Of a stretch of DNA of 64,000 nucleotides, positions 6 to 24,228 are shown piece after piece. The notes below the pieces were generated by a model. It was not told the origin of the DNA. It was given only the letters and a program-made list of their open reading frames with translations, and did no database searches. The position numbers were made by a program, and so were the translations under genes. Within the stretch, counting starts at the first letter, position 1. Every line of letters starts with the position of its first letter. Origin of the DNA: Pomacea canaliculata (taxonomy: Eukaryota > Mollusca > Gastropoda > Architaenioglossa > Ampullariidae); the NCBI RefSeq assembly GCF_003073045.1, contig NC_037593.1, forward strand, positions 2,781,525 to 2,845,524, read 5' to 3'.

Positions 6-3000
6 CTTGCTGATAAGCATCATGAACCCAGCTTTTGCCAACATTCGGTGCACCATCATTTAACACACAGTCAGCCTGCCAGGTCTGTAATTCCTTCTTT
101 AAATCCTGTTATAGATTTTTACAAATCAGTTTAATACCAATTAGTATCTTACCTTGTTAGTTATGTCATTCAAGTCCTCTTTAAACAAATAAAAGTAAAT
201 GCAAAGGAACAATACTACCAAAAACAAAAAATTTCCTAACTTTTCCTGAGCATTTCTAGTTGGGTAGTCAAATCTCGCTACTATGCCACCTACCGGGACC
301 GAGCATAAGTGGCATAGTAGCGAGGTGGCATAGTAGCAAGATTTGACTGTAACATCAACTGAACACAACTACAAATATAAACTTTAAACAAAACACCATA
401 ATGTAAGATTGTTTTACACAAATAATAAATATTTTTGTACAATCTGAAATTTTTCCCCCCAGAATTCATCATTGGTTGATTACAGAATTGACAAATTTTT
501 GTCATAATTTAATTGTCTGAAACAACAAAAAAAAAAGGACAGAAAGTGTGATCCTTTTTGTCAGCTTTTGTCCAACTGTAATACATGTTCACACATGAAG
601 TTATGCATAAGATATTGTTCATCACAATCTTTTTTTCATCTGAGTAAAAAGAATTCTTGTGCTGAAATTCACCAAGTCTTAATGAGTAAATTTCCTGACT
701 TTTCATTGCCATTTTATTTATGGAATGAGTTTATTGAATGAGTTTAATATTATAACATTTCATTGAAACATTGTATAGTTTGCAAAAATAAAAATTTTTT
801 TAAATCTACCTGTCGACATTTATCTGTGGTAATATCTTCCTGAAGGGTGATTACACGATGAATGGGACGAATTGGAACCAGATCCACTCCTACAAGCAGA
901 AATCAAGAAAACAAAATACAGTAAGATATACTTTTTATAAGCTCAAACATGTATTTAAACATAAATTATTAGATAAATTACTAAATTTTGTTACTGATTC
1001 TATAACCATTTCAAATGTGTTTTTAAATTACTTTTTATTTCATTCCACCAATGTCTAATAAGTTTCATTTAACTCTTATTAAATATTCGCTTTGTTAGAC
1101 ACATAACGTTTACAAAATTGATTATGAAGATCCACAAACAGCCACTGGCTCATAAAAATCTAAATTTCTGAAATAAAATCTTTTTAAAGCATATCTAAGA
1201 ACTATTATTATCTTTCAGGCCTTACGTAAAATGCCTATAATCTTTTTTCCCTGCAAAACTGAAGGTAGTATAAGATAGGCATATATGTGATGAATACGCT
1301 GATTTAATTAATTTCACCAGGGATAGCGGTCATTTCTGAATTTTAAGGCCAAACTTATCCACATTAAAAGAAGCAAACAGATGAGTGGTTAGCATATGAA
1401 GTAGGCTCAATGTCCAGCCTTCTGCTGCTAGTTGATCTAGCTGTTAAATAGGTACATGACCTATCCCCTTATTCACCATGTTAGCCAAACAGAATCTTTG
1501 GTCTGCAAAATATAAGCCTGACTAAATTATTTATTTGGTGTACATGTTTAAAGCAGCTGTTGATAGCTATGGACTATAATCCCACATGTAGGTCAGTGTA
1601 TTAAAATCAAAGATATAAATAATACTAAAAATACAGCAACCAGAAAGTAAAAATATTATAAGAATCCTCATACCAACAATAAGGCTAGACACAGGTGTGT
1701 GCTCTGCTGCCACTTGAAGCCATCCACCTGGGGCAGCACACAAGTCGATCACGACACGGGATTTTTGCAGGAATTCATATTTGCGGTTGAGTTGGATAAG
1801 TTTGAATGCTGCTCTTGATCGATAACCTGAAAGCAAAAATTTATTGAAAAATTGCATTTCAACTTACAGTCAAAAATTTAAAGCTACATTTTTATAGCAC
1901 CCTTAAGGACTCTGAAAAAAATATGATTTATGCTGTATTAAATACACATCTAACATAATAATAATGACCATTTTTGTGCATGTATCACCTATGACAAAAG
2001 AGCTCATGGCACTTACTTTAAAAAAACTCTCAGACTTAATCATCATTATCCATCCATTCAGTCCATACACTTAAACATGTACAGCTGAGCAAAGTACAAA
2101 AGAGTCATTACACCTTAAACTTACAAACATGCACAGCTACTCAAAAGAAGTCATTGCTGGGGACAGTAAATATATGAGATCTGATGACTCTTTGAAGTGG
2201 GTGTGGTATTTGAATTTTGGATATTGAAAGGTAAGTTGTTCCATACTACAAGGCCAAAATTTTTTTCTGTTGGGGAATCATGGCGGTTCAAAGGTCAGAC
2301 AAGGGGGGGGGCCTTTGGTGTTTTACGCCCTGCCAGCAACTAAGGCTATATTACGGCAAGCAGCCAGCCCTGTAAACAGATGCCACGTGCAGAGAAAGAA
2401 CAGCGTGCCCGATACGAGAAATGAACTCAGGGCAGCCAACCTTCACTGTATTGGTGTCAGGCGCTAACCGTTGCGCCACCGGACCGCTCAAAGGTCAGAC
2501 AAAGCTAAAGACCATGAAGGAACACAGACTGAATATGGAACCAAAGTAAATTGCATTTGTTGAGGGACTGGAAGCCAATGTAACTTATGAAAATGAAATT
2601 TTTATTTTTTACACACTTAGGCCCATTTTAAACCATATAATACATATTTTGGTATGAAGAATGTTTCAGAATAAAGTAGTTTTTTTCTTTGTATTTAATG
2701 ATGTAAACTTATATTACATAATGATCTTATTTTCTGTTAACATTAGCAGCAGTAGTTTAAAGGTATTACATCTGCAGTAAAACTTTTTGGGAGAATAATT
2801 TTTTTTTATCAACATCACTGCATACTTTAAACATAATCAAAACATAAATATAAAACTTTACTTTGAAGATACAATAAGGTGAGCCTGACTATAGGTCCTG
2901 GTGCATATTTTATTAACAAAACTATTGTACCACTACCAAACACTCTTAACTATATTTTCTACATGTCTAAGTAAAACTTTTTAAATTTTTCTCCTTTTTA

Positions 3001-19099: not shown

Positions 19100-20490
19100 T
19101 ATCTGTTGGTGACCTTTATAGCCTTAGTTGCTGGCACAACAACACAACCAACCCAGATACCCTAGTCCAGCGGTTCTCAACCTTTTACATGTGGCGACCC
19201 CCCTGACGAACACCGGTACGTCCGCGACCCCCCTTAGCCGGCTAGGTCGGTGGAAGAGCGGGGGGGGGGGGGGCAGCTTTAGCAAACCTCGAACGCCGCG
19301 TCGAGGAAATCAATGCAATTCAACAACGGAAGAGCAAAGTTCGTATCTGCAAGAAGTATAACTGTTAATGAAATTTTACTAAAGCTAATAAATATTATTT
19401 TATTGGACACTCACTTTGATTAATGAGAAGGTTGAGCCTGCTTGCTGTTGCCTAAAGAAGCGAACCTGTGTGCGATGTTCGTACCCACTGCTAATCGCAG
19501 CTCAGCCTCTGCGTCCACACGATTTCTGTATTTCGACTTCAGTGCTGCCAATGCTGAAAATCCTTGCTCACACATATACGAAGTTGAAAATGGCAGCAGA
19601 ACTTTCATTGCTTTCTCAGAAAGGAGAGGATATTCACCGTTGACGCTAATCCAGAATGTTGGCACTGGTGTTGTTTGGAAGACCATTTTCAGGGATTGGT
19701 CACTCGAAAGGTCGATGAGCTGCTCTTCTTCTTGCGTGGACAACCCGCTTGTGCTAGGATCAGCCAGAAATGGATTACGAATCCAATCGTATTTAGTCAC
19801 ATCAATTTCAGCGAAATAATGCTGAAACCTTTCTTGCAGTCCGTTTAGATGGGCAATAATTACATTCTTCACCTGATCAAGATTCAAGTTGTCAGCCTTG
19901 CACTTACACAAGCACGGAAACATATCAAAAATATTTTCTTGGCGTATCTTTTGCGTCCACAACGAAATTTTTCGGACGAAAGCATTCATCTTGTCAGTTG
20001 TTTGTAATATGGTGGTGTAATATAGGGGAGTCAGCGATGAGAGATTGGGGGAGAAAGAGGGCAAAAGGCGAGAGGAGGGAGATTGGAGGCTTAATTGTTG
20101 AGAGGGAGATTGTGTTTTGAGTTTTGGAAGTGAGAAGTCACTGCATGCCGAGACAGTGTACTTGAATAGGAAGAAGAGATTTGGAGTTTGAGCCCCCGCA
20201 CCACTCGGTTACACAATGTAAACTAATTCCACTAATACCAGTATAAGAAACTTTTTTTAAAAAATGACCACCTTCGCGACCCCCTTGTAGGCACGTCGCG
20301 ACCCCCCAGGTTGAGAACCGCTGCCCTAGTCTGTTTTAAGTTGACCTTTAAACCAGTCTTCTCTGCTTCCTGCGCTAGCTTTTGTGCATGCTGCTGCCAA
20401 CAAGATAGAAGTTCAGGTCCTATAGCTGTTTGAAGGTCCACCAAGTGTTGTCTTGTGCATAAGCTAGTCTATTACCATCATATAGAGGAA
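19100..20490 (-). mobile_element. LINE RT fragment interrupted by a hAT element
   Basis: On the minus strand, 20490-20332 contains a decayed LAYAQD (the YADD region), then EAEKTGLKVNLKQTR, the RT block just after the catalytic site. The reading is interrupted at ccctagtc by the hAT insertion and resumes around 19160. The outer limits are approximate. Confidence 0.55.
19168..20323 (-). mobile_element. hAT DNA transposon, internally deleted, 8-bp TSD
   Basis: The ends are cagcggttctcaacc at 19168 and ggttgagaaccgctg at 20323, with gcgacccccc blocks just inside both. The exact 8-bp duplication ccctagtc lies at 19160-19167 and 20324-20331, which is the hAT signature. The minus strand has a 214-residue open stretch (20064-19420) with RKISLWTQKI, DWIRNPF, LLPFSTSYMCEQGFSALAAL and KSKYRNR, i.e. 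the C-terminal hAT dimerisation region of the ZBED5/SCAND3-like group. The N-terminal zinc finger and catalytic core are absent. At 1156 bp it cannot be autonomous. Confidence 0.92.
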
Positions 20491-20858: not shown

Positions 20859-23800
20859 TCAGAAGACCATCTTGTGAGGATATTGGTGGTTCTTCAAAGA
20901 AAACAAAGCACCAAGGTAACCAAACAAGTATTTCTTTTCAGGGTTCTGGCGAATCACCTCAAGCAGTTGCTTGTCCACCTCAGCCTGGTCAGTCTTTCGA
21001 TTTTCGGAGACAGCATACACCTGAAACAGAAACATAACCACATCTTTGAAGCAGAAGTAATTATTCAAATAATAAAAAGTAGTTAAAATAGATACAAACT
21101 TTACACTTGTAAATGCTCAGAGTTGCTTATTTTGGTTAAACTAAAGGCGTACCTCTTTTTTGGTGTCAAAGATTTCGCCCTCAGCATGCTTTGGCTTGCG
21201 TAGTTTCAGGCGACGGAAATAGTCATCGTTCAAGCGGTCAGGAATCTTGACGTCTTTGATGTCAATCTTGGTCTTAGTTGCAATAACATAGATCTGATTA
21301 ATCCGACGCAGAGGACAACCATTCAGGTGGTAAGGACCTGTCACAGAAAGTGGCTTAAGCAACCAAATGATTTAGCAATAAAACTTCTAGGCATTTCATT
21401 TAAAGCACTTTTAACCAAATGCACCTTCTTGGAACAGTTATACTCTGCACACTGCTAAATATAAAAAATATAGTATGCCTTGTTTTAAGTTCAAAAGAAG
21501 CATAAACATGAGTTGCTATACAATTCCCACCACAATCAAGACAGATTTTAGCCAGAAAAATGAGCATGTTCAGTTGTGTATGTGTCCATCAGGAGTCAGC
21601 GACTCTAGTTTGAAAATGTTCATCACAACATGCCAGATACCAAGATTATGAGGAAATAATAACATTTTGACCAAACTTGGCTGCATTGGAGAATCATGTC
21701 CAACTACTTCAACTATTAAGTCAACCTGAGTGTCATCACATTTTTTTTAAAATTAACCTTACTTCTAACACTTTTGTTATAGGTTAAATTAGTGTTTTTC
21801 CACTTGGTGTAAACTGTTAGAACTGCTGAATATAAGACAAACCATCAGTCTTTAGGCTGCCCAGCAACAGTTGGTAGAAATAAGAGCTTAAGGAAAATGC
21901 ATTAAAAAGGTACTTACCAGTGACAAGAAGCAGTCCCGAGTTAAGTTGTTTCAGGAATACCACTCTCTAGAAAAAATAATATATATATATCGTAATAACC
22001 ATGATTTTTTTATTTAGTGAGTGCACAAGCTATGAAGTAAACCAGCCTACCAAGTAGTTATATATCACTTTTGTTGTTTCAGTTTGATTAGCCTCATTGT
22101 GCTGTTTTTTTATTTCAAACCATATTGAAAATATATGAAAGGAAGACGCAATGCAGTAGCATTAGGTGTAAGCCTTACCCTAGGGATAAACGTAAATTTC
22201 ATGTTAAGACCAAATCTATTACTTCTGAGTCATGCTGTGCATGCCATTGCATAATATATTTGAGATAACATTGGACAACTTATTTCTCAAATCATAACTT
22301 CAACAGTCCATGGTAAATAAATTTGATATTACTCTGTATCCATGTGCAGAACATAGGATTGTTCTGCACCCACTCATTGCCAACAGATGGTCAAAAATAA
22401 CACATGGCTTGTAAGAACAGTACAGCATGTGTAAATCATAGTTCAACGTGCTTCTTCCCATAGAGCACTGGGTACTACAGAGTGCCAGCCTAGCTCACAA
22501 TACATGCCAGCAACTGACCCAGTAGGTAAAACAACCACACAATTAGTTCTTTCAATTTAAAATCACACAAAACATTAATGAAATATTTATTGTTTGGGCT
22601 GAAGTATTTAATGCTAAACTTTGGTAATACATTTTTAGTAACTCCTTGGGGACTAGTTTTCACTTTACTGCTATGCCACATCTTTGCATCTCTTCTTGCT
22701 CTTTATGCTGATTTGAAGGAAATCCAAACTACTTGTATCTTTACTCCTAACTGTGTTAAATGTCTGTATGAGTATGTATGCCTGCCCTTGTGAGCGAAGA
22801 AAAATTTGTCCTGGGTCTCCTCGACAGACAATAAAGTCTGATTTGATTTGATATTTAATTTGCCTCAAACCCCTTAGCAGGATGGGCTATATACATGAGA
22901 GCAGTAATAATAAAAACATCACCCACTGTCATCTTAACCATCTTCAAGAATATACCATTACTTTGATATATATTTTTACTTCTTTGCTGGGTTAAGAGGG
23001 TTACATGAAAAATCTTTGCAATTCCCAATATAAAAGTTTTTCAAATCAAAATCCTACCCCATACTCCATTTGGTATTCTTTTAAATTGGCAAAGTATGCT
23101 TTTATAAGAAAAAAGCGGCATACAGACAAGGTGTGTGGATAAGCATTTCTCTAAGCACCATCATGATGGTACAAGCAAAAATATAATAGCCAGCAATTGA
23201 TGCTTACCTTGCCCTTATGTCTTCCAGCAACAAGAATAAGGATGGTACCAGGCGTGATGCTGCTCCTTAGTTTGTGCTTGTGCTGAGAGAAGAACTTCTG
23301 TCTGGGGTGCAGTCGTTTCTTTCCCTCCGCAGTTGGCAGATACCTCGGTAACCTGTTCACACGAACTTTCCTTTTTCCACCATTTTTATCACCACCAATC
23401 TCTTTCTCCACAAAATGTGGCTTCTTAGCTGGCATCTGCGGTAATAAACAAAAATTATTGGCTGGCATGTACATGTAATGAGAGGCAAACTTGTTACACA
23501 GCGATGATCGCCATGTTAGCAATACTATGTCTAATGATGTTTACAGCTGAAACGATGAGCAAAATGCAGTACAAACTGACACGTCTAGGCTGACTCCCAG
23601 TTAAATCTTAAGCATGATAATTTACTATTCCCCACATCACTTCCTAGCCTTCGTTTTGCTGCCAATATAAGCGAAGGAGTGGGGGGGGGGAGGGAAGATG
23701 ATTCTTTGAACTGAAAGGTTTTAGAACATAGTGGTATTTTACCATTAATTGGCCCAAAAGCCCAAAGAGACGGTTACATTTTTGACACTTAAAAGATAAC

Positions 23801-24067
23801 CATCCACAGACCACGACAAGTTTTGCGCTTAGAATTCACCGGTACGAATGGCTAACCCAGAAAAACGTGAGCATCTAGCAAACCATGTATCAAGTTTACA
23901 CTCAAATTTTCAAATATAAAGAGCCAATTACAATCACAATTATAGTATGTTAAATTTTGAGAATGTATTGCCTATCAATTGTTGCGGATGCTGAAAAATA
24001 CTAGAGATCGAAAGTGATTTGTTTCATAAGGGATATGCTTCCCTACACTTACTTTGCCTGTGTTCAT
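20859..24067 (-). CDS. RPL6: 60S ribosomal protein L6 (eL6)
   Basis: Large-subunit ribosomal protein. Coding exons on the minus strand: 24067-24053, 23435-23208, 21966-21918, 21337-21153, 21020-20859; phases agree and give 212 residues. Conserved stretches are [93 protein letters not shown] and the end YPHKMVF. Exon 1 encodes only MNTGK, then MPAKK, so either Met could start. The N-terminal basic extension of the vertebrate protein is much shorter here. A poly(A) signal (AATAAA on minus, 20842-20837) lies 17 bases past the stop. A C/D snoRNA candidate lies in the intron 21338-21917. Confidence 0.97.
21564..21633 (-). ncRNA. C/D box snoRNA candidate in an RPL6 intron
   Basis: Read on the minus strand: stem GCATGT (21633-21628), C box GTGATGA (21626-21620), D' box CTGA (21599-21596), C'-like TGATGGA (21591-21585), D box CTGA (21573-21570), then stem ACATGC (21569-21564), which pairs with the 5' stem at all six positions. 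At 70 nt it is typical. The bases before D' (CAAACTAGAGTCG) are complementary to GACTCTAGTTTG, which I recall as a conserved segment of large-subunit rRNA (GAGCUUGACUCUAGU...). The fifth base before D' would place the 2'-O-methyl on the U of GACU. Host-gene location, orientation, size, boxes and stem all agree. The target is from memory. Confidence 0.82.
22680..22860 (+). repeat. LINE-type 3' end with TTTGA tail
   Basis: The segment runs through ctcctcgacagacaataaag into tctgatttgatttgat, a common LINE 3' end with a short TTTGA repeat. It lies in an RPL6 intron, antisense to the gene. The upstream limit is a guess. Confidence 0.45.
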
Positions 24068-24228
24068 TGAAAAGGAAGTCAAGATCAGCAACGTCACAAC
24101 ATGTGCACCAATACCAATGACGTGGAATCGTCAACTTCCGGTGTTTCTATTTAAGCGCTACTTGTGTTTTTGATCTTTTCAAAAGTCGCCACCTAATTAT
24201 AAAAATTATTTAAGGGGTTTTGTAAACG
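24068..24228. promoter_or_regulatory. 161-bp divergent promoter RPL6 / INO80E
   Basis: The two start codons are 161 bp apart on opposite strands. The gap holds acttccgg (24134-24141), an ETS/GABP-type site (CCGGAAGT on the minus strand), a GACGT word nearby at 24119-24123, and on the RPL6 side CTTCCTTTTC just before ATG, a possible TOP tract. A TTTAAG lies between. The functional roles are inferred from the motifs. Confidence 0.65.

Follow-up and report, generated by a model that had tools for sequence, protein, structure and literature searches.

Does a 70-nt stretch inside an intron of the ribosomal protein gene RPL6 code for a box C/D snoRNA, which rRNA nucleotide would it guide for methylation, and how does it relate to the guides described for that site in other organisms? 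A first-pass annotation of the window (the whole 64-kb stretch of DNA that was analysed) had placed such a gene there in the orientation of its host and had named host and target. The features on which the answer is built are collected in Table 1.

Table 1. Positions of RPL6, of the predicted snoRNA with its sequence elements, and of the related genes on contig C1. Positions are those of the window unless C1 is indicated.
Feature	Position	Strand	Basis or remark
RPL6 last coding exon	20859..21020	-	splicing reconstruction
RPL6 coding exon 3' of the snoRNA intron	21153..21337	-	splicing reconstruction
RPL6 host intron, 580 nt, GT-AG	21338..21917	-	splicing reconstruction
RPL6 coding exon 5' of the snoRNA intron	21918..21966	-	splicing reconstruction
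RPL6 coding exon, ATG directly after AG acceptor	23208..23435	-	splicing reconstruction
Probable first exon of RPL6 with 5'TOP-like start CTTCCTTTTC; GTAAGT donor from 24052	24053..24078	-	picked by eye
Predicted box C/D snoRNA gene, 70 nt, U52/snR78-type	21564..21633	-	sequence; Rfam SNORD52 28.9 bits at 21567-21630; box set unique in window
Terminal stem 5' arm GCATGT	21628..21633	-	perfect complement of 21564-21569
C box GTGATGA	21620..21626	-	sequence
D' guide, 14 nt (CAAACTAGAGTCG = 21612-21600)	21600..21613	-	pairs with 28S-like TGACTCTAGTTTGG
D' box CTGA, exact	21596..21599	-	sequence
C'-like box CTGATGG	21586..21592	-	two departures from RTGATGA
D box CTGA	21570..21573	-	sequence
Terminal stem 3' arm ACATGC	21564..21569	-	sequence
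C1a	C1:28825170-28825237	+	C/D anatomy, guide core CTAGAGTC
C1b	C1:28825370-28825431	+	C/D gene, guide core AAACTAGAGTC, degenerate D' (CCAA)

Four coding exons of RPL6 (eL6), joined through GT-AG introns, give an open frame of 207 amino acids. Its translation matches the Pfam family Ribosomal_L6e (1.3e-38) and eL6 chains of the PDB (best 2e-79), in agreement with the host named by the first-pass annotation. The putative snoRNA has the orientation of RPL6 and starts 284 nt after the beginning of the host intron, leaving 226 nt between its 3' end and the intron end, more than the distance usual in mammals. The probable first exon contains an ATG whose frame continues into the next exon; translation of RPL6 may therefore begin a few residues further upstream (MNTGK; MNTGKMPAKK).

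The open stretch just downstream of RPL6 (window 19423-20208, minus strand) has a match to the carboxyl terminus of hAT transposases (PF05699, 5.2e-05). About 20 kb from the snoRNA, an FtsJ-like methyltransferase exon (PF01728, 4.1e-17; 1570-1863, minus strand) may belong to the guide-free rRNA methyltransferase FTSJ3/Spb1. The window codes also for a single-exon deaminase-like gene (PF14437, PF00383; 38280-38819, plus strand) whose product resembles ADAT2.

Read on the minus strand from 21633 to 21564, the 70 nt have the organization GCATGT-T-GTGATGA-ACATTTT-CAAACTAGAGTCG-CTGA-CTC-CTGATGG-ACACATACACAA-CTGA-ACATGC. The C and D boxes lie near the ends and are closed by a terminal stem of six pairs, all of them Watson-Crick, as expected for a box C/D RNA. 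An internal pair is formed by an exact D' box and a C' box that is off by two letters; C' boxes commonly depart from the consensus. The four boxes in their order, the perfect stem, the length and the orientation relative to the host gene are all present, in the interval first described.

This combination of elements is rare in the sequence around it. A strict box set (C box R-TGATGA, CTGA as D', CTGA as D and at least 5 Watson-Crick pairs in the stem), searched on both strands of the 64 kb, occurs once, at the RPL6-intron snoRNA. In dinucleotide shuffles of the window any such set was found in 4 of 200 (mean 0.02), none with a guide of at least 10 nt to the 811-nt rDNA piece described below, and 5000 shuffles of the 580-nt host intron yielded no strict box set. 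Upstream of the D box a second guide was considered and rejected: the gap from C' to D is just 12 nt long and offers, in the rDNA loci, at best the TGTGTGTGTG repeat (10) and a run of 8 nt.

The target of the D' guide was sought across the whole genome (440,159,624 bases, 24 contigs) with a 75-nt stretch of 28S rRNA as query. Three places were found, designated C2 (92% identity), C5 (84%) and C9 (83%). The target site reads GACTCTAGTTTG in C2 and C5 and GACTCTGGTTTG, one letter apart, in C9. The 811-nt C2 piece scores 535 bits against the eukaryotic large subunit model (RF02543, LSU_rRNA_eukarya; model positions 1891-2984) and C5 scores 310 bits; C9 reaches 135 bits, yet at model positions 967-1381. 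Both C5 and C9 are diverged copies. The C2 piece (L021:1-811, minus strand) is overlapped by a long SSU match (1-1833), and its first part is presumably 18S-like, the target sitting in the 28S-like part. This overlap and the 18S-like start give the rDNA of the assembly a fragmentary and rearranged appearance.

Guides of box C/D RNAs pair with rRNA over about 10 nt or more directly upstream of D or D'. The D' guide forms 14 contiguous pairs with the C2 28S-like DNA, 12 Watson-Crick and one G.U at each end, and the best duplex computed with ViennaRNA (-19.8 kcal/mol) uses 13 of the 14. The complementarity to conserved large subunit rRNA put forward in the first-pass annotation is thus found in the same genome, and the run, although read from fragmentary rDNA, exceeds the limit of about 9 contiguous pairs with the 28S rRNA of the species below which that annotation would have been abandoned. 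Counting from the D' box, the fifth pair involves the U of GACU in GACUCUAGUUUG, which is the U that had been predicted. Among the rDNA loci scanned this site is the best for the guide, with a run of 14 in each of C2, C5 and C9, followed by a run of 11 with 9 Watson-Crick pairs.

It is exceedingly improbable that the boxes and the complement of the guide met by accident in the intron. The 12-nt guide word is not rare, being found at 29 places of the 440-Mb genome, among them the RPL6 gene and two rDNA copies (the word read backwards occurs at 73). However, none of the 200 window shuffles holds a full box set with a guide of at least 10 nt, and the anatomy is restricted in the genome as well. 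A C box followed by CTAGAGTC is present at 39 places in 37 loci (26 places for the backwards control) and C/D anatomy was recognized in three of these loci: RPL6 and C1b, both by script, and C1a, by eye. The script missed C1a because its 8-bp stem (GCACACAG/CTGTGTGC) sits past an internal loop that the script disallows; none of the remaining 34 loci was flagged.

The predicted target U corresponds to a known methylation site, Um3904 of human (U52/SNORD52), Um2421 of yeast (snR78) and Um2411 of Arabidopsis (AtsnoR37). The table of PMC8817022 equates these three positions with one another and with Um2687 of Dictyostelium, guided by CD22. In PMC3511168, clan CL00063 groups U52 (RF00276), snR78 (RF01176) and AtsnoR37 (RF00333), with the yeast position numbered Um2414. 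PMC6461891 reports a C/D RNA of a nucleomorph that shares the target of SNORD52, and PMC5597630 enters Um3925 (3904) with SNORD52. According to PMC8178906, which terms human SNORD52 a singleton, U3904 belongs to helix H73 and lies close to the peptidyl transferase centre. In the RPL6-intron gene the equivalent of Um3904/Um2421 lies at the fifth pair from D', and the consensus guide of Rfam SNORD52 is in the same register. The literature search found no paper tying RPL6 introns to a guide of the U52/SNORD52/snR78 type, and RPL6, U52, SNORD52 and snR78 are absent from the main text of a paper on ribosomal protein introns of sponges (PMC3412847).

It is very likely, given this pairing and anatomy, that the interval 21633-21564 codes for an intronic box C/D snoRNA that guides methylation of the 28S U through its D' guide. 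Its expression and action would follow the course established for C/D snoRNPs. The snoRNA would be transcribed together with RPL6, and splicing of the 580-nt intron followed by trimming to the terminal stem would free it. The C/D core proteins, fibrillarin, NOP56/58 and 15.5K, would then bind the freed RNA, the D' guide would pair with 28S rRNA and fibrillarin would methylate the 2'-O of the target U. A main role of this C/D RNA other than 28S methylation, for instance in splicing of its own host, is very unlikely, even though intronic snoRNAs that affect host splicing are reported in PMC10324135: the helix of 14 nt at an established methylation site accounts for the guide, and the D-side stretch has no notable match in the rDNA loci examined.

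The guide had also been suggested to be the local form of the one known in yeast and vertebrates. The suggestion holds for the target, since the U is that of U52/snR78, but is not backed by the family score. SNORD52 (RF00276) is the best Rfam match of the window and covers its model over the full length (1-67), at 28.9 bits, below the gathering cut-off of 45 bits. The E-value is 0.00027 for 401 nt searched, 0.043 for the 64 kb and 0.07 in the genome search. Because the SNORD52 search, at E up to 10, matches also in every one of the 14 prokaryote control genomes (each time below the cut-off), the Rfam match is weak by itself; the kind of RNA, C/D, is settled by guide, boxes, host and target. 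SNORD33 (20 bits, E 0.55) and SNORD101 (15.9 bits, on the opposite, plus strand) are weaker matches than SNORD52 and were discarded.

Outside the guide, the stretch from D' to D does not resemble the Rfam SNORD52 consensus beyond chance (363 of 2000 shuffles as good), a comparison of little power given the short stretch. With a score below the cut-off, the gene is filed by function and not as a confirmed member of RF00276. It is best described as a predicted C/D guide of U52/snR78 function, for which shared descent with SNORD52 is not established by score or likeness. The resemblance to human U52/SNORD52 (RF00276, CL00063) lies in the predicted target U, the guide register upstream of D', the box order and the length (67 model positions), whereas the guide core is CAAACTAGAGTC here and CAGACTAGAGTC in the consensus of Rfam. 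An A stands in place of the consensus G, and an inner pair that would be G.U with the GTTTG target of this genome thereby becomes A-U.

The gene setting of these guides is diverse. The host of human SNORD52 is presumably SNHG32/C6orf48, and yeast snR78 is polycistronic, a setting different from the RPL6 intron. SNORA58 is an H/ACA RNA, unlike the C/D RNA in RPL6. PMC3511168 describes its recent migration into MRPL3, likewise a case of a snoRNA in a gene of ribosomal-protein type through copying. By their target, snR78 (Um2421/Um2414) and AtsnoR37 (Um2411) resemble the RPL6 guide, as they are assigned to the equivalent U in the tables cited above.

The genome carries further candidate guides of this type. 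A tandem cluster on contig C1 (G000:C1:28825168-28825715, plus strand) comprises the two U52-like C/D genes C1a and C1b, 200 nt apart, and a SNORD15-like match of 24.5 bits, below its cut-off of 75 (L024:1168-1240, 1366-1436 and 1600-1715). The three members share a strand and fit into about 550 nt, and no host gene was identified for the cluster. C1a and C1b score 34.4 and 32.8 bits, respectively, in the SNORD52 family, above the RPL6 copy and both below 45. A fourth U52-like candidate on C1 was seen by eye (L024:1882-1957; guide GGCTAGAGTT); it is degenerate, with an imperfect D', and is left out of the count. When the 70-nt snoRNA was used as DNA query it matched nothing but itself, and an exact 30-nt pattern had no match in viral contigs.

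C1b can reach the target U of the RPL6 guide over 13 contiguous positions (11 Watson-Crick and 2 G.U) with the first position unpaired. It resembles the RPL6 copy in target U, guide core and the D'-to-D stretch, C' box included (0 of 2000 shuffles as good), and differs by its setting in a tandem C/D cluster and its degenerate D'. The RPL6 copy and C1b are probably paralogues. C1a shares the C/D anatomy and a guide core able to pair with the same U, in a possible run of 13 with 10 Watson-Crick pairs and 3 G.U. Its D'-to-D stretch is like that of C1b (2 of 2000 shuffles as good) and unlike that of the RPL6 copy (408 of 2000). In addition, two C2 copies contain an 18S-like CTCTAGCCTGT site with which C1a makes 11 contiguous Watson-Crick pairs from position 4, positions 1 and 3 being mismatched; the target of C1a may be the 28S U or the 18S site. 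Both sites contain CTCTAG, so a guide such as C1a could drift between them. Related guide copies at RPL6 and on C1 fit the known mobility of snoRNAs.

The presence of these relatives raises the question of whether the RPL6 copy is a silent or dispensable duplicate, a gene of the C1 cluster doing the work. C1b reaches the same U and C1a could do so, yet the D' box of C1b is degenerate (CCAA) and C1a needs three G.U pairs for the 28S site and makes more Watson-Crick pairs with the 18S-like one. The RPL6 gene combines canonical C, D' and D boxes and an adjoining 6-bp stem with the longest helix of the three, and it is housed in a ribosomal protein gene. A silent or dispensable copy is improbable in the light of these features, and the RPL6-intron gene is preferred as an active guide for the 28S U.

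The RPL6-intron snoRNA would be a known kind of guide and opens no new class of system. The locus is mildly unusual in its RPL6 host and in that two, perhaps three, guides are predicted for a nucleotide that human serves with a single guide. It places a predicted guide for rRNA methylation in a ribosomal protein gene of an animal seemingly outside the usual models, with a guide letter that suits the target of this genome where the Rfam consensus guide would give a G.U. A more speculative and unlikely proposal is that guides which differ in host and in pairing, all serving one U near the peptidyl transferase centre, could set the level of the mark according to tissue or stage. The RPL6 copy would then be the best matched to the 28S rRNA of the lineage, and C1a may have drifted between 28S and 18S. 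The RPL6 and C1 genes would add to the examples of C/D guides that are deeply conserved and have related copies at different places of one genome.
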